Shown here: positions 40,634-60,271 of the stretch, piece by piece
Layout: each line of letters begins with the position of its first letter
How positions within the stretch are numbered: position 1 is the first letter of the stretch
Source of the DNA: Opitutales bacterium
GTDB lineage: Bacteria; Verrucomicrobiota; Verrucomicrobiia; Opitutales; Oceanipulchritudinaceae
Reading direction: 5' to 3'
Assembly: GCA_020831525.1 (NCBI GenBank)
Contig: JAFIGH010000010.1
Location: 1-64,000 of the forward strand
DNA length: 64,000 bases
Position numbers and translations under genes: made by a program
Notes under the pieces: model-generated
Seen by the model: the letters and a program-made list of their open reading frames with translations, nothing else
Database searches by the model: none
Told to the model about the DNA's origin: nothing

Positions 40634-41548
40634 ATGAACAAGACATCTCTTCCCCGCCTCCTCCTAGCCGGACTCCTCGCCCCGTGGGGACTCTCCGCCG
40701 AACCCGTCACGATCTCCACCGTGCCTTTTGGTGGCATGATCCTCGAGATTCCCGCGGGCACCTCCGTCGTCTCCGACGTGTTCATCGGCAGCGCCCTCTA
40801 TCAGGGACCGGTCGCTTCCGTCTCCGCCGAGGGCGATGTTCTCGGAATGAGCAACGTCCCCGCCATTGAGAACCCCTCCTACATCCACGTCCTCTCCGGT
40901 GACGACGAAGGCATGGTCTCTACCATCCTTGAAGCCGACAGCGAATCCGTCACTGTCGAGACCCCGCTGAACCTCGTCGAAGGCGATATCGTGGCGATCC
41001 GGAAACACCAGACCATCGGGCAGTTTTTTGCAGGGGCGGCGCTGAGTGATTTCGATACCGTCACATTCTACAATACAGATGGAAAGGTCGAAACATTATT
41101 GTATTTCGAGGGCAATTGGTATGATTCGGAGACAGAAGCTCCCAGTGATAATACGATAATTTTCCCTGCGGAGGCCATAGTTCCGTCGCTTTCCGCTGGA
41201 ACGACACTGGTTGTATCCGGGTCAGTATCAGCCAATCCGGTCAAGGTAGAATTTGGCGCAAATGTCGTAAACCTTATCGGAGGATTGGATCCAGTGAATT
41301 CCCCTACCCTGAACTCGATCTTTCTATCTGCATTAAATGACTTTGAGACAGTTACACTTTACAACAATGTGAACGGGACATTAACTTCCACCGGCACTTA
41401 CTTGCGCTTCGGCGACTCACTTTTCGATGCGTTTACCGAAGATCCTGCCGACGACGTAAGCGTTGAAATTGCCAGTGGCGCAGTCATACTTACATCAAAC
41501 AAAGGCTACTTACACATAGGGGCCGCTTATTCCAGCAGCAATGAATAA
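40634..41548 (+). CDS. Secreted protein, TIGR02597-like
   Basis: A 304-residue exported protein with signal peptide (1-22, LLLAGLLAPWGLSA). The recurring patterns are VVSDVFIGSALYQGPVASVS, the IGQFFAGAAL and FDTVTFYNTDGKVETLLYF units, and LGM/IEIPAGTSV. This layout recalls the Verrucomicrobia-specific TIGR02597 family; that match is from memory. The first 400 bp are GC-rich, but from about 41030 the gene turns AT-rich, and the AT-rich stretch continues into the next gene. No PEP-CTERM tail is present. The role is unknown; a surface or extracellular location is likely. Confidence 0.7.
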   Translation: MNKTSLPRLLLAGLLAPWGLSAEPVTISTVPFGGMILEIPAGTSVVSDVFIGSALYQGPVASVSAEGDVLGMSNVPAIENPSYIHVLSGDDEGMVSTILEADSESVTVETPLNLVEGDIVAIRKHQTIGQFFAGAALSDFDTVTFYNTDGKVETLLYFEGNWYDSETEAPSDNTIIFPAEAIVPSLSAGTTLVVSGSVSANPVKVEFGANVVNLIGGLDPVNSPTLNSIFLSALNDFETVTLYNNVNGTLTSTGTYLRFGDSLFDAFTEDPADDVSVEIASGAVILTSNKGYLHIGAAYSSSNE

Positions 41549-41600
41549 ACAAGAGTATTTCCAAACGACGCAGGCAACCTGACATCCAACAACCAATTTT

Positions 41601-42248
41601 ATGCGGCTATTCAAATCAACAAACTTCCTAGCTCTTTTGCTCCTTTGCGCCTCTGTTTCTTATGGCCAGATAACGATTACCTACATGATTGAACGAGAAA
41701 CTGTTTTTCTCCCGGATAACACTAATCTCAATCGTGAGAACTTCGATGAAGGCGAACGGAATGTTACTGTCTACGGAGGACTCGTTGCTTCGGTAGAGGC
41801 GGCTGAAAATGCACTAGCCGGATTCAATACTTCAACAAACCCTAGCGACCGCGTAGCTGCTTTACAATCGGCATTCTCCAGTGAGACCTTTACTTGGCTA
41901 GGCGAACCGATTCCCACTTCAAGTGATTTGTTTGCGAGCAGCCTCGACTGGCGTGGCACGCGCAGCACATCTCCCGGAGAATTCGCCGTTTTGTTAATTA
42001 CGACCCAGCCAATTGCTGAACTACAAATCGATTCTCATGTGGGTTTCGTAATTACAAATCAAGTAGTTTCTTCCGCTCTTGGCGGTGAGTCCATTGGATT
42101 CAATACCACGCCTTTGAATTGGGACAACGCCCTCATCGGCGAACTCGGTTCACTCACTCTCGCCGCCATCCCCGAGCCCCGCGTCTACGCGGCGGTCTTC
42201 GGAATCTTCGCTCTTGGCTTTGTCCTCTGGCGTCGCCGCCGGGCCTGA
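41601..42248 (+). CDS. PEP-CTERM sorting-domain protein
   Basis: A 215-residue exported protein. Signal peptide at 1-22 (NFLALLLLCASVSYGQ). The C-terminus carries the exosortase sorting signal: I-P-E-P, a hydrophobic helix (VYAAVFGIFALGFVLW) and R-R-R-R-A. The middle is beta-rich and unassigned. Such proteins are processed by exosortase and linked to extracellular polymer export. The coding sequence is AT-rich until about 42120 and GC-rich for the PEP-CTERM tail. It follows the previous gene by 52 bp and ends just before a strong terminator. Confidence 0.85.
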   Translation: MRLFKSTNFLALLLLCASVSYGQITITYMIERETVFLPDNTNLNRENFDEGERNVTVYGGLVASVEAAENALAGFNTSTNPSDRVAALQSAFSSETFTWLGEPIPTSSDLFASSLDWRGTRSTSPGEFAVLLITTQPIAELQIDSHVGFVITNQVVSSALGGESIGFNTTPLNWDNALIGELGSLTLAAIPEPRVYAAVFGIFALGFVLWRRRRA

Positions 42249-43849: not shown

Positions 43850-46800
43850 TCACCGCAGAGTCATCTCGAAGCGATAGAACACCGGCCACTGAGCGGGTTC
43901 GGGGATGATGAGGCCGAGTTCGTCCGTGCCGATGGGGGCGGCGTCGAGGCTTTGGTCGGAGAAGGGGGTCGAGAGGTCGTCCGACTTTTGCAGGCGGAAG
44001 CGCAGGTGGGGAGCGTAGTCGCCGGGAAAGTCCATGCGAAAGACGAGTTGTCCCTGTTCGTCGCGCTCCATGCGCACTGGCGGCGGGGCGAGGGAGACGG
44101 GCGGACCGTCGGGCATACTCTGGGGGTCGAGGGGATCGGAACCGTCGAGAAACTCCTGGAGGAGGCTGTAGCCGTCGCCGTCGAGATCGGCGAAGGGATC
44201 AAAAGCGGTGTCACCCAGAGCCTGCCACATCCACTCCGGCGGAAGGAGGCCGGGGAATTCGCCGGGATCGTGGGGCGGCAGGCTGACGAGGCTTACCGCG
44301 ATCACTTCCATGGCCTCGGGCGCGCAGGCGGGGGCCTCGACATCGGTGTAGCCGCGCACGTCCACGACCGCCCCCGATAGCAGGCGCAATGAACCCGAAA
44401 TGCGCACCGGATCGCCATCCGCTCCGAGCAGCGCCACGGGGCTGTCGTTGCCAACCCGATACAGCCGCACACATGCCGCCCCCATGCTGTCCGTGTCGAC
44501 CCACAGGGCGATCTCGTCCTGCGGGCGCTCCGCCGCCGCACCGATGACGGCCTCCGCGGCGGCTCGGGCCTCGGCCAGTTCGGCGGCGGAAAGCGCGGTG
44601 GCGGCGGCATAGCCCTCCGGGGGATCAGCGGCGGCACCGAAAAGCTCCCCGCTTTCGAGGAAAGCGCGCAAGACCCGCACCGGCGACGGATACAGCCCCG
44701 GCAAGTCGTTGGCCGCTACAGCGCTGCGGTGGTAGGTCTCCCGCGCCAGCTCGCGCAGGTGCGCGACCCCAGCGTCCGTGCCCGCTCGCACCGCATCCTC
44801 CATCTCCGCAAAGACGGCGGCGAGGTCGTAGCCGCCGTCCACGCCCGGCATTTTGTGGCGCAGCGAGCGCATAAGCGCGCGGGACAAACGGATGCGCTCG
44901 TCATCCACCGGCACATTCTCCGTTTCGGGCGGGAGTGAGCGGTCGCTCTCGCGGAAGGGCGTGAGCGTCACGCGCGGATCGATAATCTCCCCGCGGGCGT
45001 AGAGCGCTGCTCCGAGGAAGCGTTCGAAGAGCAGCAAGGCCAGCGTATCCAAGAAATCGATCTCCCGGTCCATGCGGGGCCTTGTCAACGCCGCGAAGTG
45101 CGCCTGCGCGGCGGCGAGCCATGCGTTGGCTTCGTCCAGCGGGTCGCCCCCGCCGTAGATGTAGGGCACGGGCACGGCGGGCATGGGCGGCGGACGCACC
45201 AGTGCGAGCAGCTCGCGCCCCGTATCCGGATCTTCGTGCGCCGTCTGCACCGGGAAATTCCGCGCCGTGGCAACAACCACAAAGGGCGATGCCGCCCCAC
45301 CGTCAACCGCCGGGAAGTAGGCCACCGGACCGGACGGCGCGCCGGAGGGCAGGCCGTCCGTCGTCGTGCGGGTGGTGCGCAATTGGGCGCGGTCAAGGTT
45401 GTGCAGGCTGACCCGCGCGCCGCGCCCGGTGGCGCTTTCGTCGAGCGGCGGCACAAACGGTGAACCGTCGCCCGTGTCGGGATCGAGCGAACGGGGTGCG
45501 GCGAGCAAATCGAAAAAGCCCGGCGTGACAAACTCCGCCATCCGCCCGTAGTCGGGCACGTTCACGTTGGGATCGAGGTCGGAAGGCCGCGTGGGATAGT
45601 CGCTGTCATCCAGCGGATCGTAGCCGAGGAGCAACTCCACAAGGTCGGGAAAACCGTCGCCGTCGGAATCGGCCGGGCCGCGCGGATCGAGCCCAAGGGC
45701 GGCGCGCACAAAGTCGGGCATGCCGTCGCGGTTCGAGTCCATATCCTCGGGTGCCACGGAAAAGCTGTAGGTCACGTGCCGCAGGGGACCGGCCACACCG
45801 CCGGGGCTGCGCGCGTAGTAGCTCACCACGGTGTCCTTGTAGAGCGGACCCACCGGACCCGTCGCCTCCAGCCACGGTCCCTCATGGTTGAAGCGGTAGT
45901 AGACGGTGTCGCTTGGCCGTGGCGGCTGGAAAGTGAGCGTAATGCTCGCGTCGAAGACGCCGAGTGCGGGCGAGACAGTGGCCTCACCGGGTCCGGCCCC
46001 ACCGGGATCGTCGAGGCTGAAGATGGAGAGCACGGGCAGGACTTCATTGGTCATGACGTGCGCTGCGCCAGCGGGCAAACCGCTGACCGAGGCCGCCTCC
46101 GCCGCGCCCAGTCCGTCCGCCGCGCCCCCGAAGCGCTCCGCCGTGAAATCCACCCGGCCGGCCCCGGCGTCGAGCGAGGGCGAGCGCGTCCAGTCGGGAT
46201 AATGGTACTGCGCGAGCAGTTCCGGCTGCGGATCGACAAAGGGTTCGCCGGTGAAGACGAGGATGTTTGTGGTCGCGCCGAGGACAGGCGGGGGCGCGAT
46301 GCTGTAGCGACCGTGCCCGGCGAAGGATGCGCCGTCGCGCTCGTAGTAGGTGCCGCCGGTCGAATACGATGCACCCGGGACACTCTCAAACAGGTGAAAG
46401 CCGTCACGCCCCGGCAGGGGCAACGCTCCGGAAAAGCGCACCCCCGACGGTGCCGTAAAGGTCTGCTCCGCCGTAAGCCCGCCCCCGCCATCGTCGGCGA
46501 GCACATGGGCGTGCAGGCCGTCCTCCGACACGGCGAGCAAACGCGTGCCGCCGTCGAACCGGACGGGATAGACCCAACCGACGGGGAAGCCCACGGCCGT
46601 GCCGCCCGCGGCTCCGAATTCAGGGTTGCCCGAATCGCCCGCCAGCTGCACCCGCGTCACCGTGGAGTCTCCGGAACCGTAAAGCACGAACTCGCCGCGC
46701 GCGGGCGGATCGAAGACAACAAAGACAAAGCGCATCCCGGCATCGAGCCCGCCCAGCGTATCCAAAACAGGGTGCGCGGCGTTGGCGGCGGAGAGGAGCG

Positions 46801-47563
46801 CCAGTTCGGCGCCGCCCGCCGCCGGTTCCACGAGGGCGGCGAGAAGCGCGGGCGAGCCGTCGCCCGGCACGACCTCCGCCAAAGCGACGGGCGCACCCGC
46901 CGCCGTATTTGTGCGGTATTGATCGGGAGTGCCCGCCACGCTGTGGAAGGAAAGCGCGTGGTCGTCCGGCGCACCGTTGTAGCGGGTCCCCACGGCGACC
47001 CCGTCGAGCAGGGTCGAGACCGCGCCGGGCAATTTGAAGCCGAGCACCGACGATGGGCCGACGCGGTCAAGCGGCAGGCGCTCCGGCGGCACCACGCCCG
47101 TTGCCCCCACAGGCTCCAGCCCGAGGAGGTTCACCCGGTTCGAGAAGGAGGAACCAACGGCAAAGCTGTCACGGTTTGCGGCGACGAAGCGGCCCACACC
47201 CACCCCGTCCACGTCCCGCACGCCCGTCGGGCGCGCGGACGAAAACTCCGGAGCCGCGCTGTGCTCCGCCACGCGGAAGAGCCCGCGCGCGCGCTCCACG
47301 AGCAACAGCTCCTCCGCGCCCGCGTCGGAGTACGCGCCTTCCGCGAAATACTCGTGCTCACCCTCCCAGACTGGCGCGGCGGGCGCGGTTGCGCAAACTC
47401 CGACGAAGGCACAAACGGACATCCCCCACCGGAACACGTGCCGGATCGCCTGGGTAAGTCCGGAGCCCGAAACATTTCCGGCGGTTTTACGCGGTCTAAA
47501 GACACGCGCTCCTGTCGGCAGTCCGGAGATTCGGACGCCCTGGCGTTTCATTCGCGCGTTCAT
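43850..47563 (-). CDS. Giant secreted protein C, 1237 aa, with calcium-binding-type motifs
   Basis: Third gene of a coupled operon; ATG overlaps the upstream stop by 4 bp. The N-terminus has about 45 residues before a hydrophobic segment (SVCAFVGVCATAPAAP), so the signal region is unusually long. Residues 60-550 are beta-rich with FG-GAP-like phrases (DVDGVGVGRFVAANRDSFAV). A thrombospondin-type-3-like acidic run (DSNRDGMPDF..., DSDGDGFPDLVELLLGYDPL) lies near 610-655 and another (DLDGDGYSLLQEFL) near 1150. The rest is unassigned. I expect export to the periplasm or surface and calcium binding, but no enzymatic motif is visible. Confidence 0.75.
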   Translation of the reverse strand: MNARMKRQGVRISGLPTGARVFRPRKTAGNVSGSGLTQAIRHVFRWGMSVCAFVGVCATAPAAPVWEGEHEYFAEGAYSDAGAEELLLVERARGLFRVAEHSAAPEFSSARPTGVRDVDGVGVGRFVAANRDSFAVGSSFSNRVNLLGLEPVGATGVVPPERLPLDRVGPSSVLGFKLPGAVSTLLDGVAVGTRYNGAPDDHALSFHSVAGTPDQYRTNTAAGAPVALAEVVPGDGSPALLAALVEPAAGGAELALLSAANAAHPVLDTLGGLDAGMRFVFVVFDPPARGEFVLYGSGDSTVTRVQLAGDSGNPEFGAAGGTAVGFPVGWVYPVRFDGGTRLLAVSEDGLHAHVLADDGGGGLTAEQTFTAPSGVRFSGALPLPGRDGFHLFESVPGASYSTGGTYYERDGASFAGHGRYSIAPPPVLGATTNILVFTGEPFVDPQPELLAQYHYPDWTRSPSLDAGAGRVDFTAERFGGAADGLGAAEAASVSGLPAGAAHVMTNEVLPVLSIFSLDDPGGAGPGEATVSPALGVFDASITLTFQPPRPSDTVYYRFNHEGPWLEATGPVGPLYKDTVVSYYARSPGGVAGPLRHVTYSFSVAPEDMDSNRDGMPDFVRAALGLDPRGPADSDGDGFPDLVELLLGYDPLDDSDYPTRPSDLDPNVNVPDYGRMAEFVTPGFFDLLAAPRSLDPDTGDGSPFVPPLDESATGRGARVSLHNLDRAQLRTTRTTTDGLPSGAPSGPVAYFPAVDGGAASPFVVVATARNFPVQTAHEDPDTGRELLALVRPPPMPAVPVPYIYGGGDPLDEANAWLAAAQAHFAALTRPRMDREIDFLDTLALLLFERFLGAALYARGEIIDPRVTLTPFRESDRSLPPETENVPVDDERIRLSRALMRSLRHKMPGVDGGYDLAAVFAEMEDAVRAGTDAGVAHLRELARETYHRSAVAANDLPGLYPSPVRVLRAFLESGELFGAAADPPEGYAAATALSAAELAEARAAAEAVIGAAAERPQDEIALWVDTDSMGAACVRLYRVGNDSPVALLGADGDPVRISGSLRLLSGAVVDVRGYTDVEAPACAPEAMEVIAVSLVSLPPHDPGEFPGLLPPEWMWQALGDTAFDPFADLDGDGYSLLQEFLDGSDPLDPQSMPDGPPVSLAPPPVRMERDEQGQLVFRMDFPGDYAPHLRFRLQKSDDLSTPFSDQSLDAAPIGTDELGLIIPEPAQWPVFYRFEMTLR

Positions 47564-50500
47564 GGGATCTCAATGGTTTCGGACGGCAGGACGCGATCGA
47601 TCTCGCCGTCGGGGCGGAAGCGGACAAGGAAATACTGGTAGAGCGATCCGGAGATCACCCGCTGTGTATCGACAAGGTGGAGACCCTGCCGCGCGGGGAA
47701 CACGCTGTCGACCGCATGGAAAAGGACATAGGGATCGCGCACGAGGGTGCGCTCCTCGCCGTCCGCCGAGGGCTCGATGGTGTGGGCGATGCGCTCGATG
47801 AGGGGCGAGACCTGGATGACGTCCCGGCTCACTTCGGGAAAGCGCTCATTGGGCAGTTGCACGCGGTAGAGCACAGCGGGCAGGACGGTCTCCCCCTCCT
47901 CGCTCCGGTAGAGGTGTTCCGCGGGATCCTCGGGTGCCTCCAGCGTGAAGGGCAGCGTGCCCGCCGGTTCGGGCGAGAGGCCGCCGAAGGTCACCTCGCC
48001 CACGCGCACGCCGACGGCCCCGCGCAGTCCCGTGCCGAAGTAGACGGCGGGCAGGGGGGCGATGAACTCGGGATCTTCGTCCGGCACGGCGCGCGCGGGC
48101 CACGGCAGCGGACTGCACCATGTGATGGTGCCGTCGTCCGGGGGCACCCACGTGAACTCGACAAGGTTGCTCGGGTCGCCGGCATCACCGTAGGGATTCA
48201 CCGCCTCAATGAAAGCGGTGTAGTTGCGCCCCGAGCGCACCGGTATCGCCACTTCAAATACGGGATTGTTGCCGAAGTTCACCCCCACGACGCCCGTCTC
48301 GTAATAGCGGAAGAGCAGGTCGGGATCGAGGTCGTGGCGCGTCACCGGACCCGTCTCGGGAAGTGCGCCGGAGAGTTCATCGCCCAGCGTGTCGGGCAAC
48401 GGACGGCGACGCTCGGCCAGCCACACCCGGAAGCGATGCGCGCCCGGGCCGGGAGAAACCCAGCGCAGCCGCACCTCGGGGTCAAGGGCGTCGCCTTCGG
48501 ACTCCACGGGCTGGAGGAGGGGCGTGGGCGGCGGGCTCGTACCGACGATCTCAACGCACTCGGCACGCTCCATCGGGCCAGGATTACCGTGTTCGTCAAA
48601 CTGCTGCACGTAGTAGCAAACAACATCGGCGTGGGGCGGCATTGCCCGGTCCTCGGCGATGACAGTGCCCACCTGCCCGGACTCGTTCAGGCCCTGCGCG
48701 ATGAGGGTCAGTTTTCCGGTGTAGCCAAGCCGCCGGTACACCTTGTATTCGTAGGCACCCTCGACCATTTCGAAGACAAGGCTCACCGGACCGATCTGCG
48801 GGTCCCAGCGTGTGCGCGTGACATGGACAAAGCAGTGTGGGCCGTAGGGCCGCGGATCGAGGCTGTCGGGATCAAGCCCGAGCCCGAAGGTGGGAAAGAT
48901 CTTTTTGCCGCCGGCGAAATCCGTCTCAATCAGCACCGGAACCCACTCCGTGACGCGCCCGCCGGGGCCCGCCGCGCGCGCGTGGGCAACGAGGAGAAGT
49001 GAGGGCGGCATGTCGGGGTCGTCTCCGGGCACCATCCCGTCGGCGAGCATCTCCAGCGGAAGCGATGTGTCCACCTCGACAAAGGCGTCGAGCGTGCGTT
49101 GCAGGTAGTGTCGCCCGTAGTGAAAATGCGGCTCGGCCCCGTGCTCCAGACCCGATGGTCCAACGGAAAGCCCGAACTCCACCCACGTCACGCCCGGCAT
49201 CGCCGGGAAGGCCTGGAAACAAACATCCACCTTGTCCGGTGCCACGCCGGGGGCGCCTTCCCAGACAAAGGGCGGCTGCGGATCGACCTCCGGCCAAATG
49301 CAGATGATCTCCACATTGACGTTCTCGCCGCCCGCCGCGCCCGGACCGCGGAACTCGCGCAGCACGCCCCACATCGGCGCGCTGTTGCCCGAGGCGAGCA
49401 TCTCGCCGCAGGCATTCTCGATAAACGCGCGCACGGAGTAGTAATAGGTAGTGCCGTCGGCGGTGTCCGGGCCGTTTTCGTCGACCCACTCGTAGCGTTC
49501 GACGGCGGGATCGTGCGGGACAAGCCCGCTCACATCGTAGTCGGGGTCGAGAGGATTCTCCTCGCCCGAGGCAACCTCCTCCGCCGAAGTCCAGCGGTAG
49601 ACGCGGTAGCCGATAATCTCCATCCCTGCCGGGGCCTTGACGGGATCCCAGCGCACACGGAAGCGCAGGTGCTCTTCGCCGCCGTTGCCGTTGTCTTCAA
49701 ATGTGTAGTCCGTATCCACGTCGATATTACGCGGCGCCACCGGGGGCAGGCGGAAACACGCCTCGATGGGATCGGAGGGGACGCTGTGCCCGTCGCGCCC
49801 GAGCAGATCGCGCGGGGTCGCGAAATAGACGAAGCTGTCACCGTCGTTGAAGATATCGCCTTCGCCGAAGCGGTCGTTGTCGTCGGTGAAGAAGAAATTC
49901 TCCGGGTCGAACTCCGGGTCGGCGGCCTGCGCGTCGGTGAAGACGGCCTCGGGCAGGATGGGCAGGCGGTTGGCGCGCGCCACTTCGTCGTCGAGGATGA
50001 GGTGCGGCCACATCTCCGGGTCGGGGGCTTCGCTGTCGAAGCCGTGCGTCTGCGCGTAGCCCGTCTCCATGCGGTAGAGGTTGAAGCCGTATTGGAGCAG
50101 CGACTGCCGGGCGAGGTCGTCCGTCATGGCCCAGCGGAGGCGCAGATTGAGGTGACCCTCCGGTGTGGCCACGGGCACAAGCCGGGCCGGGCCGGGCGCG
50201 ACGAGGATCAGCGGCTCGCCGGCGGTGAGAACGATGCGCCCGATCACCGAATCGCATTCGGCGTCCGGATCGGCAAAGCCGGGCGGACAGGCGCGCACCT
50301 CGTAGGTGGCCGTCTCGGCCAGGCCCATGCGGCCCGCGAAGGCCGTGCCCAGCGTCAGCGCGACGCCGGGGTTGAGGCGGGAGAGGAAGACGAGATTGCT
50401 CCACACCTCGTCGTCTTCGAGCGCCCCGCGGTAGACATACGAGAGCTTTTCGCCAAGGCTCAGCGCGGGGCTCGGAATGAGCGTCTCGAAGAGTTCGTCG

Positions 50501-50937
50501 ACCGCCTGTTCGAGCACGTCGAGGTCCTGCCCGAGGTTGCGCGAGCGTTCAAGGATGGAGTGGATCGCCCGCGGATCGAGCTGGGTTTGCACGACGCTTT
50601 GCAGGGTAAAGGCACCGGCGTCTTCCGGTCCGCCCGGCTTGCGGTAGACGGCGAGCGCTCGGTTGCGCAGAAGGACGGGCTCGAAAGATTGCCAGACGAG
50701 AAACGCCCAGTCGCGGTCGTGGGCGTCTTCCCACACCGTTCCCGCCGTGAAGACGGCATCGCCGAATTCGGCGGCCTCCGTCTGCGGGGAGGTAAAGGCA
50801 AAGGCGAGAATGAAGGCGAGGAACGAGAGGACCACGCCATCCAAACGCTTACGCGTTCGGCTACCTACCGGGGCTACGCCGTAGCCGAAGCCGTCAGGCT
50901 TTGGACCCGCGTGATCGAATGGATACACCTGCCTCAT
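47560..50937 (-). CDS. Giant secreted protein B, 1125 aa, beta-sandwich repeats
   Basis: Second gene of the operon; ATG (50935-50937) overlaps the upstream stop. An N-terminal helix (VVLSFLAFILAFAF, about 35-48) follows a 30-residue basic lead, then AEFGDAVFTAG. The body has several fibronectin-III-like beta units with W/Y spacing, such as LRFRVRWDPVKAPAGMEIIGYRVYRW and VEYKVYRRLGY-like strands, often in pairs, and many acidic loops. No catalytic motif or membrane anchor is visible at the C-terminus. It is translated in step with genes A and C, so the three products probably belong to one assembly at the cell surface. Confidence 0.75.
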   Translation of the reverse strand: MRQVYPFDHAGPKPDGFGYGVAPVGSRTRKRLDGVVLSFLAFILAFAFTSPQTEAAEFGDAVFTAGTVWEDAHDRDWAFLVWQSFEPVLLRNRALAVYRKPGGPEDAGAFTLQSVVQTQLDPRAIHSILERSRNLGQDLDVLEQAVDELFETLIPSPALSLGEKLSYVYRGALEDDEVWSNLVFLSRLNPGVALTLGTAFAGRMGLAETATYEVRACPPGFADPDAECDSVIGRIVLTAGEPLILVAPGPARLVPVATPEGHLNLRLRWAMTDDLARQSLLQYGFNLYRMETGYAQTHGFDSEAPDPEMWPHLILDDEVARANRLPILPEAVFTDAQAADPEFDPENFFFTDDNDRFGEGDIFNDGDSFVYFATPRDLLGRDGHSVPSDPIEACFRLPPVAPRNIDVDTDYTFEDNGNGGEEHLRFRVRWDPVKAPAGMEIIGYRVYRWTSAEEVASGEENPLDPDYDVSGLVPHDPAVERYEWVDENGPDTADGTTYYYSVRAFIENACGEMLASGNSAPMWGVLREFRGPGAAGGENVNVEIICIWPEVDPQPPFVWEGAPGVAPDKVDVCFQAFPAMPGVTWVEFGLSVGPSGLEHGAEPHFHYGRHYLQRTLDAFVEVDTSLPLEMLADGMVPGDDPDMPPSLLLVAHARAAGPGGRVTEWVPVLIETDFAGGKKIFPTFGLGLDPDSLDPRPYGPHCFVHVTRTRWDPQIGPVSLVFEMVEGAYEYKVYRRLGYTGKLTLIAQGLNESGQVGTVIAEDRAMPPHADVVCYYVQQFDEHGNPGPMERAECVEIVGTSPPPTPLLQPVESEGDALDPEVRLRWVSPGPGAHRFRVWLAERRRPLPDTLGDELSGALPETGPVTRHDLDPDLLFRYYETGVVGVNFGNNPVFEVAIPVRSGRNYTAFIEAVNPYGDAGDPSNLVEFTWVPPDDGTITWCSPLPWPARAVPDEDPEFIAPLPAVYFGTGLRGAVGVRVGEVTFGGLSPEPAGTLPFTLEAPEDPAEHLYRSEEGETVLPAVLYRVQLPNERFPEVSRDVIQVSPLIERIAHTIEPSADGEERTLVRDPYVLFHAVDSVFPARQGLHLVDTQRVISGSLYQYFLVRFRPDGEIDRVLPSETIEIP

Positions 50938-53900
50938 AGCCGTTTCCACTCCTGGTTTTTGTAGAGCAGGCGAATGCTCTCGCGCCATTTGATGCAGAAG
51001 AAGTCACAAATTCCCAGCGTGGCGCGGAGCGTTCCCTCCCCGTAGAAATTGAATTCGTCGCCCACCTTGGCGGCGATCATTTCCATGCGGGCACGCGCGG
51101 TGAAGATGCAGATCGCCTCACCGCCGACCTGGGCCGTCATCTTCGCGCCGTAGGTGGGGCCTTCGACGAAATAGAATACACCGAAACCGGCCCCCGCGCC
51201 GAGGCGGAGCAGGCACCCGTAGTTGAGGATGGAGAAGTAGCCCTCCGCGAAGACATAGCCGCCGGTGAAGGGAGGATCGCCGAGGACGAGCGAGACGTTG
51301 CGGTCGACCATGCGTATCGGATCCAGACTGCACGTGCGCCCGAGGAAGACGGCACCGTAGAATTCGTAGCCGTCGAACTCCACATGGGCACGCCCCGCCA
51401 CGTAGTTTTCGAGCAGGCCAAAGGAGACGAGGGCGGCGAAGTCGGTGATGCCGACATCCTGAAACTCCAGCGCCCCCTCGACCATTTCAAGACCGCCGCC
51501 GAAGCCGATGGGCACGGTGTTGCCGCCAAAGGTCGCGAAGGAGAATTTGGCGAAGACATTGAACCGCAAATCCTCGCCGATCCACGCCACCGGCACGTCG
51601 TCCGCCCCGACCGTGACCTCGGCGGCGTAGGTCGAGCCCGACACGCTGCACGCGTCGCTGCCCGTCGACTTCAACTGGCGGATGATGAGGTAGCCGTTGA
51701 ACTCCATCTCGTCGGGCACCTTCAACTGCAGGTGAAGATCGATGCGCAGGAACCGGAGGGCATCGCCGTTGATATGCGCGTAGCCGTCCATGCGCCCGGC
51801 GGAGAGGACGGCGTTCATGTCGCCGATGACCCCTTGGAGGGCGTCGTCGATCTCGGCGAGGACCTCGCCGACGAGGTCTTTGATGACCTGATTGACCTCG
51901 CGGAAGAGAGAGTCGGTCGCCTCCAGAAAGGCCGCCTGCACTTCGTAGATGCGGTACTTGATGGCGACCTGGATCTCCGTAATGAGGCTGCTCGCCCCGA
52001 AGGCGTCGCGCACGGTCACGCGCAGGAAGGCCTTCATCTCCTCGGCGGCGTATTCGTCGAACTGCGTCGTGGAGGCCCCTGCCCCGGCGAAGAAGGCGTT
52101 GGCCGTTTCGATGGCATCCTCGATGAACTCATCGACCGTCTCCTCGGCGTCCCTCACGATGGCGGTGATGTGCGCGATAAAATCGCCGCCCGCCTCCAGC
52201 TCCGCGCGCACCGCCTTGATGAAGCCCTGTATTTCCAGGAGACCGTCGCGGATCGTGTCGAGGGTGGGGGCGGCATCCTTGAAGAGCCCGTTGAGCCAGT
52301 CGGCGAGTTCACCCTCGGAGAGCACCTTGTCGAAGTTCTGCGCGAGGTCGGGCGCGAGCGTGAAGAGGAGCTGCCGCGCGAGGGCCGTGGCAATGGGATA
52401 GGCGCCGGAGCTGTCGGGCTTGAAAATCCCGTCGATCGTCGCCGCCACCTGTCCTTGGAAATTGTCGGGGTCGATGATGATGTTGCCTTGGTCGTCGATC
52501 TTGATCTCGTCGATGAGCGCGCGGACGGCGTTCTCGGCCTGCGCGAGGTAGCGGTCGATCTGCTTGACCATGCCGTCGGCCTGACCGAGCCCGGCATCGA
52601 GTTCGAGGAAGACCTCGCGGATGCTGCCCTGACCGTCGCGGAGAAACTCAATGACGACATCCTCGTAGGCGGCGACACTGCTCCACTCCCGCGCGACGGG
52701 ATCCCATGCGTTTTGCAGTTCCGCGTAGAGGTCGTCGATGACCGGATCGACAAGCGCCTCGAAGATATCGTCGAAGAAGCGGTCGAGCTGGTCGTTGAGG
52801 AGCGCGGCGAAGGAATCGACCCCGCCCACGAGGCTGTCCGTCACCTCCTGTGTGGCCGCCGCGACGAGACTGGAGAGCACGCCGGTCTGCTCGTCGATGG
52901 CGTTGTAGACGAGGTTGGTGAGGTTGATGTCGGGCATGCCGTCGTAGGACACGCCGAACTTCAGCTCCGCGTTCTCCGCGCTCAGGTGGACGACGCGGTG
53001 GTCGATCTCAAAAACAAGAAACTCGTCCAGGAGCGTGTCGGGTGAACGGAAAACGCGCGTCGATGAACTCCACTCCAGCGGGTATTCAAAGTTGATGACG
53101 CCCAGCCAGCTCTGCCGCGCGCGCACGTAGTGGGCACCGTCCGGCCCGCCCGCGCGGTAGTCGATAAGGTCCACCCCGCCGGGGAAGCCCCGGTGCGCCG
53201 CGTCGAAGTCCGCCAGCGTGAAGAAGTCGTCGTCGTTGCCGTCCTTCCATTCGCCCATGAGGTGGATCGGGGCGATGGACGCTCCGCTCGCGCTCGTCTG
53301 CACGTGCGCTTCGAGGTCGACAAAGAAGGGCACGTCGATCCGCGCCGCGAAGTTGAGGAAGCCGACCGGGTGCTCGCCGGGGTCGACCTCGTCGAAGGCG
53401 TTGTAGTAGGCCCCCGTGACGGGAAAGACGGTGTAGACTTCGTCGCCCGGTCCCGCCATGTGGATGGTGTTGGGCATACGCAGGCGCGAGTCGTATTCCG
53501 GCAGCAGACCGTCCGCCGCCGTGAGGACGCGCCCTGTGGGGAGGAGGCCGACATTGCCGACGAGCCGCTCTTCGACGTGCGAGACGGTCGTCTCCACCTC
53601 GATGGAGAGGTAGCCGGGGGCCGACGGGTCGCAGAGGGTCATCGGGTGCCGCTCGAAGGCGATTCCGAAAATCTCCACCGGGCTGTTCCAGTATTCGAGG
53701 GTGCGGTTTTCCGCGCCGGCCTCGGGATAGGCTGTCGTGGGATTTCCGATACAGTCGAAGAAGAGCGAGCGGAAGACCACATCGATATTCGCGGGCGCGG
53801 GCACATGCACGGCGCCGTTCACGCGCGAGCCGACGACCCGCCCGTCGAGAAAGGCGAGGCCGAAACTCGCGAAGTCCGTCTCGTAGCCGTAGATGTCGAG

Positions 53901-56294
53901 CGTCGGGGGAAAGGTGGCGTCGTCGGGATCGTGCACGCCCGTCACCGTGCCCATGCGCACGACGTAGTGCGCGCACTCGCCGGAAAGCGAATACGGCCCG
54001 GTGGGGGCGTCGCCGAGGCGCGATTGCGCCGTGAGGGTACCGGGGTCCTGCTCGGCGGAGCGCAGGTTGGCCCCCGCGAGATCGCCCTCGCCCGCGCGGT
54101 AAGCCGTTTCGATGGGCCGAAAAAGCACGCCCCCCGCCGCCGACCATGCGCTCAGCAGGAGCACCGCGGCGGCGCGTTCTTCGCCGAAGCCGTGCGCCTC
54201 GCCCCGCAACCAGAGGCCCGGCATGTGAAAGCCGCCCCGCTCCCAGCCGTCCGTCCGGTGAGCATAGTCGCCCGTCGCGGGCGAGTAACCCCACCCCACC
54301 GACTGCACGGACGAGAGGTCCCCGAAAAAGGCCAGCCCGCCGTCGGGTGTCACTGAAAACACCTCCGGTGCGTCAAACGTGAGGGTCTCCGGAGGTTCGG
54401 CGACAGGGCAGTCGCCCTCAAGACATCCGCGCAGGTGCGGCACCGCAACCTGGCCTCCGCCCCCCAGCCAACTGGCGTCCGGATCGGCCTCGCCCGCCGC
54501 GAGGACCACCTGTCCGTCCGTCCAGCGCAGCGCAGCGCCCTGCGGAAAATGGGCCGTCAGCGCGCCGCTTCCGAATTCGAAGGTCGCGCTCAGCCGCGCC
54601 GAGCCTCCGGCGTCCGCCGTCACCACGGCTGTCGCGGAGATGCCCATAACCGAATCCCAGTAGTGCGCGTTGTCCGGCTTGACCAAGTCCTCCGCGGGCA
54701 GCGCCGGGTCGGCCGCGAGGAGGTCGGCGAACACTTCCGCCGCATACACCGCCGCGCCCGTCGTTTGCAGGGTGAATGCGCCCGTGTCGGCATCCCACAC
54801 AAGCTCCGTTGCCCCGAAGACCACCGGATGCGTCTCCACAAAGGCGGCGAACGCCGTTCCCGCTCCGTCGTAAACGAAACCGCCCTCGGGCAGAAGGTCC
54901 TGCCGCAGGTTCTCCTGCGCGCTGTCAATGTGGTTGTCGAAAACGGTGTCGCCGGTGTCCGCCCCCACCCCGAAACCCGGCGGCAGGAGCAGGCGCGAGG
55001 CCGCGCGCATGCCCCGGTGGGTCAGCTCGATGGGGCCGAGGCGCTCAAAGCCCGTCCCGCCCACCGCCGACACGTCCGGTGTCTGCGGCGGCACGAGCGC
55101 GACGGCACCCTCCCTGCCCGTGTAGTGCGCCGTCCCGTCGCTGCCGAGGCGCGTCTCCAGTCCGCCGGGGGCGGCAAAGGTGTAGTCCTCCGACCCGACG
55201 AGTTCCGCCTCCTCGATCTCCAGTGACACCAGCAGGTCTCCCGGAGACGACGGAGACGGGGTCGCATGCGGCGCGCCGGGCGCGTCAACCAGCGCCGTGA
55301 CGCGCGTTTCAATGGCGTCGAAACGCAGCAGGCCGGTGAAATGCAGGTACCACTCCGCCGGGGAGTCCACCGTGTTGCCGTCGCGGATGACGAGGGGCGA
55401 GGCCTGCTCTTCGTGCGAAATCGTTACCTCCAGCCGGTAGGGACCCTGCGTCGAATCGAGCGGCGCGGACGGCTGGAACTCGAGGAGGTGCTGCCACTGC
55501 GCCTCGGACGGCGTATTCCCGTCGTGGCTCCACACATTGAAATTCGCGCTCAGCATGCCGGACGCCGCCGTCGTGTCGTCGGAATCGCGCACCAGCTCCC
55601 ATTCAAAGTAAACCGTCACCGGGTTGAGCGAGGGCGGGTCCGCAAAGCCGTCGTAGCGACGCAAGGTGAAATCCGCCTCCGCCGCGAACGTCTCCATGCC
55701 CGTCACCGATTCGACGAGCGTCACGCGCTGCGGCGTCACCGTCTCCAGCACCGCGATGACATTCAGCGCGGGATCGGCGCTCACGGTGTTCGTAAAGTGG
55801 TAAAGACGCGCCCCCGGCGTGTTCTCCGGACCCTCCGCGACCGCCCACGCGCCGCCGCTTTCCTCCTCCACCTGCAAGACCACGCGGTGGTCTTCGTAGG
55901 GCGAAAGCGCCGACACCGGCACCAGCGGCGATTCCGGTGAAAAGTCCTGATTCTGCACCCCCGGCGACGCCGCGAAATCGACGTCAAACGGCGCCGAAAA
56001 CACCCACTGCTGCGGCCCCGCCCCGCCGACCACCTCCACCGGCATCCACGCGCCCCCGTCCTCCCGCTCCAGACGCCACGCAAAGCGGAAAGTGCCGGCC
56101 GCTCCCGTCCCGCCCGGCACGGAAAACCGCACCGCCGCCTCCGCCCCGACCGTCTCGCTGTGGTCCGCCGCGATGACGAATTCGCGCGTCAGGTCAAGCG
56201 ACTGCACGTCCACGTCCATCGCCCCGTGCAGCGCGGAAGCAACCAATAGCACGCCGGCCGGGGCCAGAACCGGAAACCGCAGGAAGGCCTTCAT
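50934..56294 (-). CDS. Giant secreted protein A, 1786 aa, beta-helical-beta architecture
   Basis: First gene of the operon. The start at 56294 gives a signal peptide (FLRFPVLAPAGVLLVASALHG). Residues about 25-1120 are beta-rich with repeated short domains; residues about 1125-1500 are a long amphipathic helical tract (FAALLNDQLDRFFDDIFEAL, TVDEFIEDAIETANAFFAG and similar); residues about 1500-1786 return to beta structure with five spaced cysteines and end NQEWKRL. The helical middle resembles stalk or coil regions, but no family is recognised. The upstream frame to 56459 lacks a signal-peptide fit. Nothing points to an enzyme. Confidence 0.75.
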   Translation of the reverse strand: MKAFLRFPVLAPAGVLLVASALHGAMDVDVQSLDLTREFVIAADHSETVGAEAAVRFSVPGGTGAAGTFRFAWRLEREDGGAWMPVEVVGGAGPQQWVFSAPFDVDFAASPGVQNQDFSPESPLVPVSALSPYEDHRVVLQVEEESGGAWAVAEGPENTPGARLYHFTNTVSADPALNVIAVLETVTPQRVTLVESVTGMETFAAEADFTLRRYDGFADPPSLNPVTVYFEWELVRDSDDTTAASGMLSANFNVWSHDGNTPSEAQWQHLLEFQPSAPLDSTQGPYRLEVTISHEEQASPLVIRDGNTVDSPAEWYLHFTGLLRFDAIETRVTALVDAPGAPHATPSPSSPGDLLVSLEIEEAELVGSEDYTFAAPGGLETRLGSDGTAHYTGREGAVALVPPQTPDVSAVGGTGFERLGPIELTHRGMRAASRLLLPPGFGVGADTGDTVFDNHIDSAQENLRQDLLPEGGFVYDGAGTAFAAFVETHPVVFGATELVWDADTGAFTLQTTGAAVYAAEVFADLLAADPALPAEDLVKPDNAHYWDSVMGISATAVVTADAGGSARLSATFEFGSGALTAHFPQGAALRWTDGQVVLAAGEADPDASWLGGGGQVAVPHLRGCLEGDCPVAEPPETLTFDAPEVFSVTPDGGLAFFGDLSSVQSVGWGYSPATGDYAHRTDGWERGGFHMPGLWLRGEAHGFGEERAAAVLLLSAWSAAGGVLFRPIETAYRAGEGDLAGANLRSAEQDPGTLTAQSRLGDAPTGPYSLSGECAHYVVRMGTVTGVHDPDDATFPPTLDIYGYETDFASFGLAFLDGRVVGSRVNGAVHVPAPANIDVVFRSLFFDCIGNPTTAYPEAGAENRTLEYWNSPVEIFGIAFERHPMTLCDPSAPGYLSIEVETTVSHVEERLVGNVGLLPTGRVLTAADGLLPEYDSRLRMPNTIHMAGPGDEVYTVFPVTGAYYNAFDEVDPGEHPVGFLNFAARIDVPFFVDLEAHVQTSASGASIAPIHLMGEWKDGNDDDFFTLADFDAAHRGFPGGVDLIDYRAGGPDGAHYVRARQSWLGVINFEYPLEWSSSTRVFRSPDTLLDEFLVFEIDHRVVHLSAENAELKFGVSYDGMPDINLTNLVYNAIDEQTGVLSSLVAAATQEVTDSLVGGVDSFAALLNDQLDRFFDDIFEALVDPVIDDLYAELQNAWDPVAREWSSVAAYEDVVIEFLRDGQGSIREVFLELDAGLGQADGMVKQIDRYLAQAENAVRALIDEIKIDDQGNIIIDPDNFQGQVAATIDGIFKPDSSGAYPIATALARQLLFTLAPDLAQNFDKVLSEGELADWLNGLFKDAAPTLDTIRDGLLEIQGFIKAVRAELEAGGDFIAHITAIVRDAEETVDEFIEDAIETANAFFAGAGASTTQFDEYAAEEMKAFLRVTVRDAFGASSLITEIQVAIKYRIYEVQAAFLEATDSLFREVNQVIKDLVGEVLAEIDDALQGVIGDMNAVLSAGRMDGYAHINGDALRFLRIDLHLQLKVPDEMEFNGYLIIRQLKSTGSDACSVSGSTYAAEVTVGADDVPVAWIGEDLRFNVFAKFSFATFGGNTVPIGFGGGLEMVEGALEFQDVGITDFAALVSFGLLENYVAGRAHVEFDGYEFYGAVFLGRTCSLDPIRMVDRNVSLVLGDPPFTGGYVFAEGYFSILNYGCLLRLGAGAGFGVFYFVEGPTYGAKMTAQVGGEAICIFTARARMEMIAAKVGDEFNFYGEGTLRATLGICDFFCIKWRESIRLLYKNQEWKRL

Positions 56295-56542: not shown

Positions 56543-56676
56543 TTTACACCTTGCCAAGGGGAAACGACTGAAAGACAGTGGCCCCGTTCTCCAATGACGC
56601 AAAAACGCACCCTCGGCCAGCTCGCCTCCCTCCTGTTTCGTGCCTGCGACGACCTGCGCGGCAATATTGGATGCTT
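56543..56676 (+). repeat. hsdM 5'-region duplicate, copy 1
   Basis: 134 bp that match 59693-59825 closely, including TTTACACCTTGCCAAGGGG before the gene and the first 25 codons ([23 protein letters not shown]). Agreement ends at the GGATGCTTC word. Copies are 3.15 kb apart and in the same direction. Confidence 0.85.
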
Positions 56677-57962: not shown

Positions 57963-58212
57963 CTGCGATTGGATAAGATTGGTTAAGATTGGATAAAAAA
58001 TCAAACTAAACAGTTGCCCATCAAGGAATTACGAGATTCAACCGCCCCTGCAATACACTATGAATGCCCTACAATGCCCTACAAAGGACTACGAATGGAC
58101 GACGACCCACCCACCATCGCATGAGCGAACGATTCACAATCATCCGCCCTGCCGACCACTTTTTCCCGCCTTCATGAAATCTCCTAAATCCACCGCCGCA
58201 CCCGCCGCTTCC
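57963..58212. other. Spacer with short local repeats
   Basis: About 250 bp with no gene. It includes GATTGGATAAGATTGGTTAAG-type short repeats (57967-57998) and a doubled ATGCCCTACA word (58063-58082), followed by CTACGAATGGACGACG. These look like slippage products bordering the 174-bp repeats. Confidence 0.5.
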
Positions 58213-58650
58213 CATCCGCGTTCATCCGCGTCCATCCGCGGTTCCAACGCTGACCTCGAACCACGGATAAACGCGGATAGACACGGATTGATCCTGAAAG
58301 AGGAAACCGAAGCCAATCCCCGGAAAAGCTGAACAACCATCTCAACGATGCCCACTGACAAAAGCAAAACTCCCTCAACCGCTCCCCATCCGCGTTCATC
58401 CGCGTCCATCCGCGGTTCCCACACTGACCTCGAACCACGGATAAACGCGGATAGACACGGATTGATCCTGAAAGAGGAAACCGAAGCCAATCCCCGGAAA
58501 AGCTGAACAACCATCTCAACGATGCCCACTGACAAAAGCAAAACTCCCTCAACCGCTCCCCATCCGCGTTCATCCGCGTCCATCCGCGGTTCCCACACTG
58601 ACCTCGAACCACGGATAAACGCGGATAGACACGGATTGATCCTGAAAACG
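58213..58650. repeat. 174-bp tandem repeats of the GxxExxY 5' region
   Basis: Units start at 58213, 58387 and 58561, exactly 174 bp apart. Each opens CATCCGCGTTCATCCGCGTC, has AACCACGGATAAACGCGGAT in the middle, and ends with the ACTCCCTCAACCGCTCCC word. The third unit passes into the GxxExxY gene. Length 174 is a multiple of three, so frames are conserved across units. Two diverged units follow the gene at 59071 and 59244. Confidence 0.88.
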
Positions 58651-59016
58651 GAAACCGAAGCTATCGTGGGTTGCGCTTTCGAGGTGCTGAACGAATTGGG
58701 GCACGGGCTGCTGGAGAAACCTTACGAGAACGCCCTCGTCGTCGAGTTTGGCCTCCGCTCGATTTCATGCGAACAGCAGCGGCGTTACGATGTGCTCTAT
58801 AAGAGCGTGAAAGTGGGTGAATATGTTCCCGACCTCATCGCCTTTGGCTGCGTCGTGGTGGATACCAAGGTGATTGACCACATCACCGACCACGAACTGG
58901 GGCAGATGCTCAACTACCTTAAAATCACAGGCCACCCTGTCGGCCTCATCCTCAACTTCCGCCGCGCCCGGCTCGAATGGAAACGCGTGGTGAACACAAA
59001 CCACCGGAAAAGCTGA
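58522..59016 (+). CDS. GxxExxY protein
   Basis: Small protein of the GxxExxY family (TIGR04256). The family block is TETEAIVGCAFEVLNELGHGLLEKPYENAL, containing G-L-L-E-K-P-Y, and it continues VGEYVPDLIAFGCVVVDTKVID and LGQMLNYLKITGHPVGLILNF. The fold resembles PD-(D/E)xK nucleases, but no function is known to me. The ATG at 58522 yields an N-terminus (EPRINADRHGLIL) encoded in the repeat unit, which is common in this family; the conserved part starts at about residue 43. No partner gene is next to it, and the repeats around it suggest local amplification. Confidence 0.8.
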   Translation: MPTDKSKTPSTAPHPRSSASIRGSHTDLEPRINADRHGLILKTETEAIVGCAFEVLNELGHGLLEKPYENALVVEFGLRSISCEQQRRYDVLYKSVKVGEYVPDLIAFGCVVVDTKVIDHITDHELGQMLNYLKITGHPVGLILNFRRARLEWKRVVNTNHRKS

Positions 59017-59070
59017 ACAACCATCTCAACGATGCCCACTGAAAAAAGTATAACCCACCCAACCGAACCC

Positions 59071-59280
59071 CATCCGCGTTCATCCGCGTCCATCCGCGGT
59101 TCCCATGCTCCGTTCGAACCACCGATGAACGCGGATAGACACGGATAAATTTCGAAGCAAAATCCTCAGCCAGTCATCAACAAATCTTGGCAACCCACTC
59201 CACGATGCCGAAAGACATAAGCAAAACTCCTTCAACCGCTCCCCATCCGCGTTCATACGCGTCCATCCGCGGTTCCCACA
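59071..59280. repeat. Diverged copies of the 174-bp unit
   Basis: CATCCGCGTTCATCCGCGTC recurs at 59071 and, with one change (CATACGCGTC), at 59244, 173 bp apart. The parts between them drift (for example CACCGATGAACGCGGATAG). The unit upstream of 59244 ends the block where the mod fragment begins. Confidence 0.8.
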
Positions 59281-59282
59281 CT

Positions 59283-59530
59283 CCCGCCTACGAACTCAGC
59301 GAGACCGAGAAGCGCGACCTCATGCAGCTCATCCAAGCGGGCAAGCCCCAATGGCGCGGATAAGCCAACGTTCGATAGCTCTTGCGGCCCAGAATGCGGG
59401 CGGGACGCGCGCGCTCCCAGCGGATCACCTGCTCATCCGAGCGCCATTGCGGGCAAACCCCTCCCCGAGCGCTACCGCTTTCTCCTCTTCGACGACAAGC
59501 GCGAGGTCGAACTCGTCCGGGCGGGGCAAA
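59283..59530 (+). pseudogene. Type III restriction methylase (mod) N-terminal remnant
   Basis: 59283-59348 reads PAYELSETEKRDLMQLIQAGKP, and 59455-59520 reads KPLPERYRFLLFDDKREVEL. Joined, they restore the typical start of type III Mod methyltransferases (IQAGKPLPERYRFLLFDDKREVEL, written in parts here). The break is a roughly 100-bp insertion that also duplicates GCGGGCAAGCCCC. The insertion changes frame and adds a TAA at 59361. Beyond REVELV the frame turns into unrelated, alanine- and proline-rich sequence, so catalytic motifs DPPF and the target domain are gone. It cannot make an active enzyme. Confidence 0.65.
59349..59449. mobile_element. MITE-like insertion with target duplication
   Basis: The roughly 100-bp insert starts CAATGGCGCGGAT and ends ATCCGAGCGCCATTG, imperfect terminal inverted repeats with a 2-base gap. 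It is flanked by GCGGGCAAGCCCC (59337-59349) and GCGGGCAAACCCC (59449-59461), a near-perfect 12-13 bp direct repeat. Removing one flank and the insert restores the mod reading frame. It has no coding capacity. Confidence 0.6.
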
Positions 59531-59692
59531 GACTTGCGACGTCTGCACCGCTGTCCTCCCCTTTCGGACGCCACGCAAAGCGGAAAGCGCCGGCCGCCCC
59601 CGCCCCGCCGGGCACCCGGCAAACACGCGCCGCGCCCGCTCCGCCCACCGACGCACGGGCTTTGCCTCCAGCCCTCCCCGCTCCGCATACGT

Positions 59693-59825
59693 TTTACACC
59701 TTGCCAAGGGGAAACGACTGAAAGACAGTGACCCCGTTCTCCGATGACGCAAAAACTTACCCTCGGCCAACTCGCCTCCCTTCTTTTCCGCGCCTGCGAC
59801 GACTTGCGCGGCAACATGGATGCTT
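59693..59825 (+). repeat. hsdM 5'-region duplicate, copy 2
   Basis: Matches 56543-56676 from TTTACACCTTGCCAAGGGG to GGATGCTTC. In this copy the reading frame after the joint continues as normal HsdM ([20 protein letters not shown]), so copy 2 is probably the older arrangement. Confidence 0.85.
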
Positions 59826-60271
59826 CGGAGTATAAGGAATACATCTTCGGCATGCTCTTCCTCAAGCGGCTCTCCGACCGCTTTGACCAGGACCGGGAAC
59901 GGCTGGCCCGGGACCTCAAGGCCAAGGGCATGCGCGAGGACCTCATCGTCCAGCGTCTGGAGAACCCGGACCAATACACCTTTTACGTCCCCCCGGAAGC
60001 CCGCCGCGTCCCGGTCGAGGAGATTGCCGCCGAGGATTACAACTGCAACATCCGCCGCTACGTCGACAACGCCCCGCCCGCCGAACCCCACGACGTCCGC
60101 GCCCACCTCCACGGCGGCATCCCCCTCGCCGAAATCGAGTCCCGCGCCCCTACCTCTCCGTCAGCCGCAAATTCATCGGCCACCCCGAACGCGTCAAATC
60201 CATCCTCCTCGAAAACGGCACCGACCTCGAATGCGACCGCTACCACCAGGCCGCAGGCCTGCCGAACCTAG
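59744..60271 (+). pseudogene. hsdM remnant with internal deletion
   Basis: Begins as a normal type I methyltransferase N-domain: [21 protein letters not shown] then [21 protein letters not shown], to about residue 90 ([10 protein letters not shown]). It then jumps to [21 protein letters not shown], which in intact HsdM lies after the methyltransferase core. The whole catalytic domain with its NPPY-type motif is therefore missing. From about 60143 the frame loses homology; an alternative frame (60150-60285) reads [18 protein letters not shown]-like text of unknown origin. No hsdS or hsdR gene is close by. Confidence 0.7.

Follow-up and report, generated by a model that had tools for sequence, protein, structure and literature searches.

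A co-inherited cassette of three genes for large exported proteins in Verrucomicrobiota

Little is known of the surface machinery of Verrucomicrobiota, a phylum of abundant bacteria that degrade complex polysaccharides. In a minority of these bacteria, three genes encoding large exported proteins, here called A, B and C, are inherited together as a cassette that is multiplied within genomes and extends over three classes of the phylum and into Sumerlaeota. The three proteins may well form a self-contained and obligate complex, exported through Sec for display on the cell surface or outer membrane, with different copies serving different targets. Because A and B match no family in Pfam or NCBIfam and no described cassette corresponds to the trio, we regard the gene system itself as new. 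It has neither a name nor a described function, and two of its three parts lack a family model.

The cassette was analysed in a 64,000-nucleotide stretch of contig JAFIGH010000010.1 from an Opitutales bacterium (assembly GCA_020831525.1), referred to below as the window. All three genes were defined by open reading frame and translation, and successive genes share an ATGA overlap:

50934..56294, minus strand: gene A, 1786 amino acids
47560..50937, minus strand: gene B, 1125 amino acids
43850..47563, minus strand: gene C, 1237 amino acids
50934..50937, minus strand: ATGA overlap of the A stop codon and the B ATG
47560..47563, minus strand: ATGA overlap of the B stop codon and the C ATG

Coordinates, lengths and both overlaps are exactly those given in the earlier note, and the export signals that it assigned to all three proteins are present. 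In A this is a plain Sec signal peptide at the N-terminus; in B and C a basic N-terminal stretch, about 33 residues long in B and about 40 in C, comes before the signal peptide. Compared with L086, the closest relative of the window cassette and the reference for all pN/pS and dN/dS values, dN/dS is 0.146 for A, 0.102 for B and 0.157 for C. Purifying selection on all three shows that these are real genes.

How consistently do the three genes occur together? The earlier note had proposed a search for co-occurrence in Opitutales, and profile searches of 373 genomes of the order bore it out: A, B and C are found in an identical set of 20 genomes from five families, while the other 353 have none of them. 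This identical pattern rules out a chance clustering of three unrelated genes. Across the phylum, A is present in 22 of 388 evenly drawn genomes from several classes. Scanning 84,980 genomes of named species yielded 78 loci, from Opitutales, Akkermansiaceae, Verrucomicrobiaceae, Pedosphaera, Kiritimatiellales and Pontiellaceae, as well as two distant loci, of which one is labelled Sumerlaeota and one came from the same phylum search. The core of the cassette is reduced in both distant loci: A has no N-terminal domains, and the profile match of C starts only at position 389. The set includes isolates (Haloferula luteola, Luteolibacter marinus and two Roseibacillus species) as well as metagenome-assembled genomes, and the cassette offers a short list of testable genes.

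Gene B lies directly 3' of A in 72 of the 78 loci. The remainder comprise four loci with the order B-C-A, three of which have a C/A ATGA overlap, one contig end and one orphan A. The orphan, a full-length gene of Roseibacillus persicicus (L145, 9974-15394), has neither a B nor a C nearby (within about 10 kb) and is counted against an obligate complex; the same species has a second, complete cassette (L172).

Is the cassette translationally coupled? The overlap ATGs of the window are conserved in L086. Residues 1-34 of B show no protein-level constraint relative to L086 (pN 0.27 and pS 0.20, against pN 0.09 and pS 0.42 downstream), and the stretch of C from the overlap to the signal peptide differs by 81 nt between the two loci. 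Taken from these comparisons, the overlap ATGs of B and C may not be the start codons in use, and the true starts could lie further in; coupling is thus plausible but unproven. The earlier note went further and held that coupling implies fixed stoichiometry. That step is not supported, since an overlap of 4 or 1 nt is found at 19 of 72 A-B junctions and 18 of 62 B-C junctions, the rest being mostly short gaps (51 and 40 more, respectively, fall within -20 to +60 nt), and since the overlap ATGs of the window are perhaps not true starts. Better evidence for a joint function comes from co-evolution and equal copy number. A scan for promoters and terminators gave nothing exceeding shuffled sequence.

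Genomes with the cassette have from one to about seven diverged copies. The genome of the window counts five genes each for A, B and C, two contig ends having been joined by inference to reach this total: one C sits at the edge of another contig, which probably connects to the C9 locus. Its four further full-length A paralogues are 34-35% identical, and each is followed by a B and, wherever the contig permits, by a C. Genome G006 has about seven A genes, five of them interrupted at differing sites by frameshifts or a stop (L083/L119, L080/L169, L079/L179, L082 and L099), and its B and C genes are mostly intact. Either assembly error, at about 12x coverage, or real decay could account for the broken genes.

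The trees of A, B and C, built from 55 complete cassettes, are congruent (Mantel r 0.77-0.87, against at most 0.20 in 999 permutations) and have 32-38 of 52 splits in common. Paralogues from one genome are scattered over the A tree, on which the Kiritimatiellae form one clade. Variation along A is strongly graded: the N-terminal 600 residues have dN/dS values of 0.25-0.37, declining to 0.03-0.07 over the last 600, and the N-terminus evolves about ten times as fast as the C-terminus. Extra domains are found at the N-terminus of A in some copies (a DUF5122/Rax2-type propeller, MAM-like, CARDB) and on C in others (DUF5122, Ig, cadherin-like, Rib). Judged from these patterns, the variable head of A on a conserved base would fit a recognition device.

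Protein A consists of a signal peptide, two tandem beta domains, a beta region, a helical stalk and a C-terminal amphipathic beta domain. The corresponding features are as follows:

55275..56105, minus strand: A residues 64-187 and 224-340, tandem duplicated beta domain in the fast-evolving head (profile self-comparison and dN/dS)
52944..54377, minus strand: A residues 640-1117, large beta domain of the conserved core (AlphaFold2, mostly pLDDT 85-95)
51828..52922, minus strand: A residues 1125-1489, helical stalk (AlphaFold2, helices of up to 54 residues)
50937..51806, minus strand: A residues 1497-1786, C-terminal domain of 15 long amphipathic antiparallel strands, where A is most conserved

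The repeated unit of the head is a beta domain of about 120 residues. An AlphaFold2 model of residues 640-1786, built from 52 homologues (pLDDT 84, pTM 0.72), confirms the beta, helical-stalk and beta zones recognised in the earlier note. Most of the 15 C-terminal strands are 11-16 residues long in this model, and their hydrophobic face has aliphatic and small residues in mid-strand and more aromatics at the ends. Six conserved cysteines fall in the C-terminal domain (1549, 1655, 1694, 1729, 1763 and 1767). Near-invariant cysteines number ten in A, whose placement suggests that they may be paired; seven are conserved in B and none in C. In Foldseek, no PDB entry matched the model as a whole or the beta domain 640-1117 at E <= 1e-3. 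In a PDB profile search, the stalk gave generic helical-bundle matches only; those to spike proteins and apolipoprotein A covered the stalk alone and were set aside as compositional.

What might the C-terminal strands of A do? On the model, the sheet could be an outer-membrane barrel, an open sheet that binds lipid, or something else. If it is a barrel, A would resemble the type V autotransporters, with the barrel anchoring or exporting stalk and head and with B and C bound outside. The resemblance lies in the Sec signal peptide, the order of variable passenger, helix and C-terminal long-strand beta domain on a conserved base, the amphipathic pattern just described, and Foldseek probabilities of 0.98 to BtuB and 0.75-0.9 to porins. 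However, TM-scores to outer-membrane barrels do not exceed 0.36 and no E falls below 1e-3; the barrel fold is not a confident one, and A does not match the Pfam Autotransporter family. The strand count of 15, the tight turns at both ends and the conserved cysteines at both ends are also unfavourable, and A has obligate partners, unlike the autotransporters. We regard an autotransporter-like A as worth keeping in mind but rather doubtful.

After its signal peptide, protein B is a fibronectin-III-like beta protein whose N-terminal region is conserved. The fibronectin-III-like strands noticed earlier are corroborated by fn3 (Pfam) matches in 4 of 12 B relatives (best E 2e-5).

Protein C is made up of a signal peptide, a beta-propeller, a TSP3 segment, a mixed helical domain, a second TSP3 segment and a C-terminal beta domain (AlphaFold2 model, pLDDT 84, pTM 0.65):

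46121..47380, minus strand: C residues 62-481, beta-propeller head (AlphaFold2, Foldseek, and FG-GAP in 6 of 14 relatives)
45572..45763, minus strand: C residues 601-664, first TSP3/calcium-type segment
44087..44287, minus strand: C residues 1093-1159, second TSP3/calcium-type segment, a duplicate of the first (profile self-comparison, E 7e-7)

The propeller head had been overlooked in the earlier note, which picked out the thrombospondin-3-like acidic repeats. The N-terminal domain of C has 215 Foldseek matches at E <= 1e-3, and those among the matches listed are mostly propellers, including DDB1 (E 6e-8), the archaeal surface-layer protein 1l0q (E 1.5e-7) and, further down, an integrin ectodomain. 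FG-GAP scores 10.2 bits in C itself, below the curated cut-off of 22.1; FG-GAP or FG-GAP_3 is found in 5-6 of 14 C relatives (best E 3e-4). Similarly, TSP3_bac is sub-threshold in C (16 bits against a cut-off of 25), and TSP3 is detected in 7 of the 14 relatives (best E 2e-15).

These domains invite comparison with known adhesive proteins. FG-GAP (VCBS) or integrin-type propellers are the closest counterpart of the N-terminus of C. Unlike integrins, the trio has no integrin beta partner or transmembrane segment, and the propeller belongs to a cassette of three genes; in the C copies of the two distant (Sumerlaeota) loci no propeller was detected. The bacterial TSP3 adhesins MtsD and CglD of Myxococcus are likewise exported with calcium-type TSP3 segments. 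By contrast with these, C scores only 14.7 bits for MtsD and 10.4 for CglD, far below the curated cut-offs of 800 and 400, and the similarity is confined to the TSP3 stretch. Glycan uptake of the SusC/SusD type finds no counterpart, as neither TonB nor SusD families were detected in A, B or C with Pfam and NCBIfam.

The trio could instead be a structural layer, sheath or fibre comparable to an S-layer that binds no ligand. Large proteins with cysteine bonds, calcium-type repeats and fibronectin-III-like domains would suit such a role, as would the resemblance of the C propeller to an archaeal surface-layer protein. Such an assembly is unlikely, because both the patchy presence of the genes in the phylum and the occurrence of several diverged copies with differing heads in one genome would be odd for a single coat.

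The best Foldseek matches of the whole A model raise the idea that A carries lipid or other hydrophobic cargo in the manner of the large lipid transfer proteins; B and C would then provide the docking. The top matches are apoB-100, the MTP large subunit and vitellogenin, which like A have the order beta, helical and amphipathic sheet. The matches are weak (E 1.6e-3 to 0.07, probability only 0.04-0.41, TM-scores <= 0.08), and even the best of them is not significant (E 1.6e-3, probability 0.41, TM 0.08). Moreover, the helical domain of large lipid transfer proteins is a superhelix, whereas the helical part of A consists of long rods, and a PDB search revealed no sequence similarity of A to these proteins. 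We consider a carrier function improbable. A polymorphic toxin or contact weapon would also be large, exported and present as several paralogues, but it is ruled out for practical purposes by the direction of variation in A, whose N-terminus varies on a most conserved C-terminus in the reverse of the polymorphic toxin pattern, and no toxin domain or adjoining immunity gene is found.

We return to the obligate three-protein complex. Following export from the cytoplasm by the Sec route, the proteins would be displayed at the cell surface or outer membrane. The C-terminal amphipathic sheet of A would serve as a conserved base from which the helical stalk carries the beta core and the variable N-terminal head. 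B would act as a fibronectin-III-like scaffold connecting the parts, and C as an arm stabilised by calcium through its TSP3 segments, with the propeller as a second head. Duplication of the cassette would allow heads to diverge or be swapped among copies, so that each copy probably binds a target of its own, whether another cell, a polysaccharide or a particle. We infer the binding or adhesive role, and any ligand, from the domain types; the physical complex, its surface location and its stoichiometry we likewise infer. The multi-part surface structure proposed in the earlier note would fit the export signals, the conserved cysteines, the calcium-type repeats and the variable heads. Its alternative proposal of an export apparatus gained no positive evidence, there being no ATPase and no conserved neighbour.

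If the trio is merely an adhesin complex, its working principle is known and only the proteins are unfamiliar. More tentatively, the cassette might be a new type of outer-membrane machine, in which the C-terminal sheet of A, of a fold not seen before, would be embedded in the membrane or bind lipid, and paralogues would exchange heads to yield target-specific receptors or adhesion devices.

Has such a system been reported before? The earlier note knew of none, and none was found in the open-access literature searched, including PMC12057145 and PMC13274419; subscription journals fall outside this search, and absence from it is no proof. Giant genes in the PVC superphylum (Omnitrophota and others) are described as encoding single giant proteins with adhesion or degradative domains (PMC12057145). 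The trio resembles them in consisting of large, exported, multidomain proteins from related phyla, and differs in that no three-gene unit is described for them.

Does the cassette belong to a larger operon? Flanking genes lie on the cassette strand at chance level (32 of 62 and 25 of 45), no conserved accessory genes surround the trio, and neighbours are unrelated across loci, which rules out a larger operon. An origin from a phage or plasmid was likewise rejected, as no relatives of A, B or C were found in phages, plasmids or viral contigs.

Some neighbours nevertheless recur. A WD40-repeat Ser/Thr kinase family gene adjoins six loci (L131, L141, L146, L151, L157 and L159), five of which also have an ECF sigma factor family gene, three of these five being of the B-C-A order. 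DUF1573 genes (Ig-like, HYDIN-type) adjoin five loci of different classes (L121, L123, L128, L166 and L170). In the window, two exported proteins with no Pfam family are encoded downstream of the cassette on the opposite strand (40634-42248), the second of which has a PEP-CTERM-like tail by eye and no Pfam match.

On the other side of the cassette, the 5' end of A (56050-56145) has a degenerate second copy, 79-85% identical, at 59541-59645, about 3.4 kb away; this is the only other match to the A 5' end in the genome. The region upstream of A is likewise present in a degenerate second copy (56543-56667 and 59693-59817), and the copy adjoins a gene for an HsdM N-terminal domain (59744-60271). 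To judge from its letters, an old duplication or rearrangement has left its trace next to the cassette. Between A and this copy, a 148-nt direct repeat occurs in five intergenic copies of 70-100% identity (58141-58726 and 58999-59319), as part of units of 173-174 nt.
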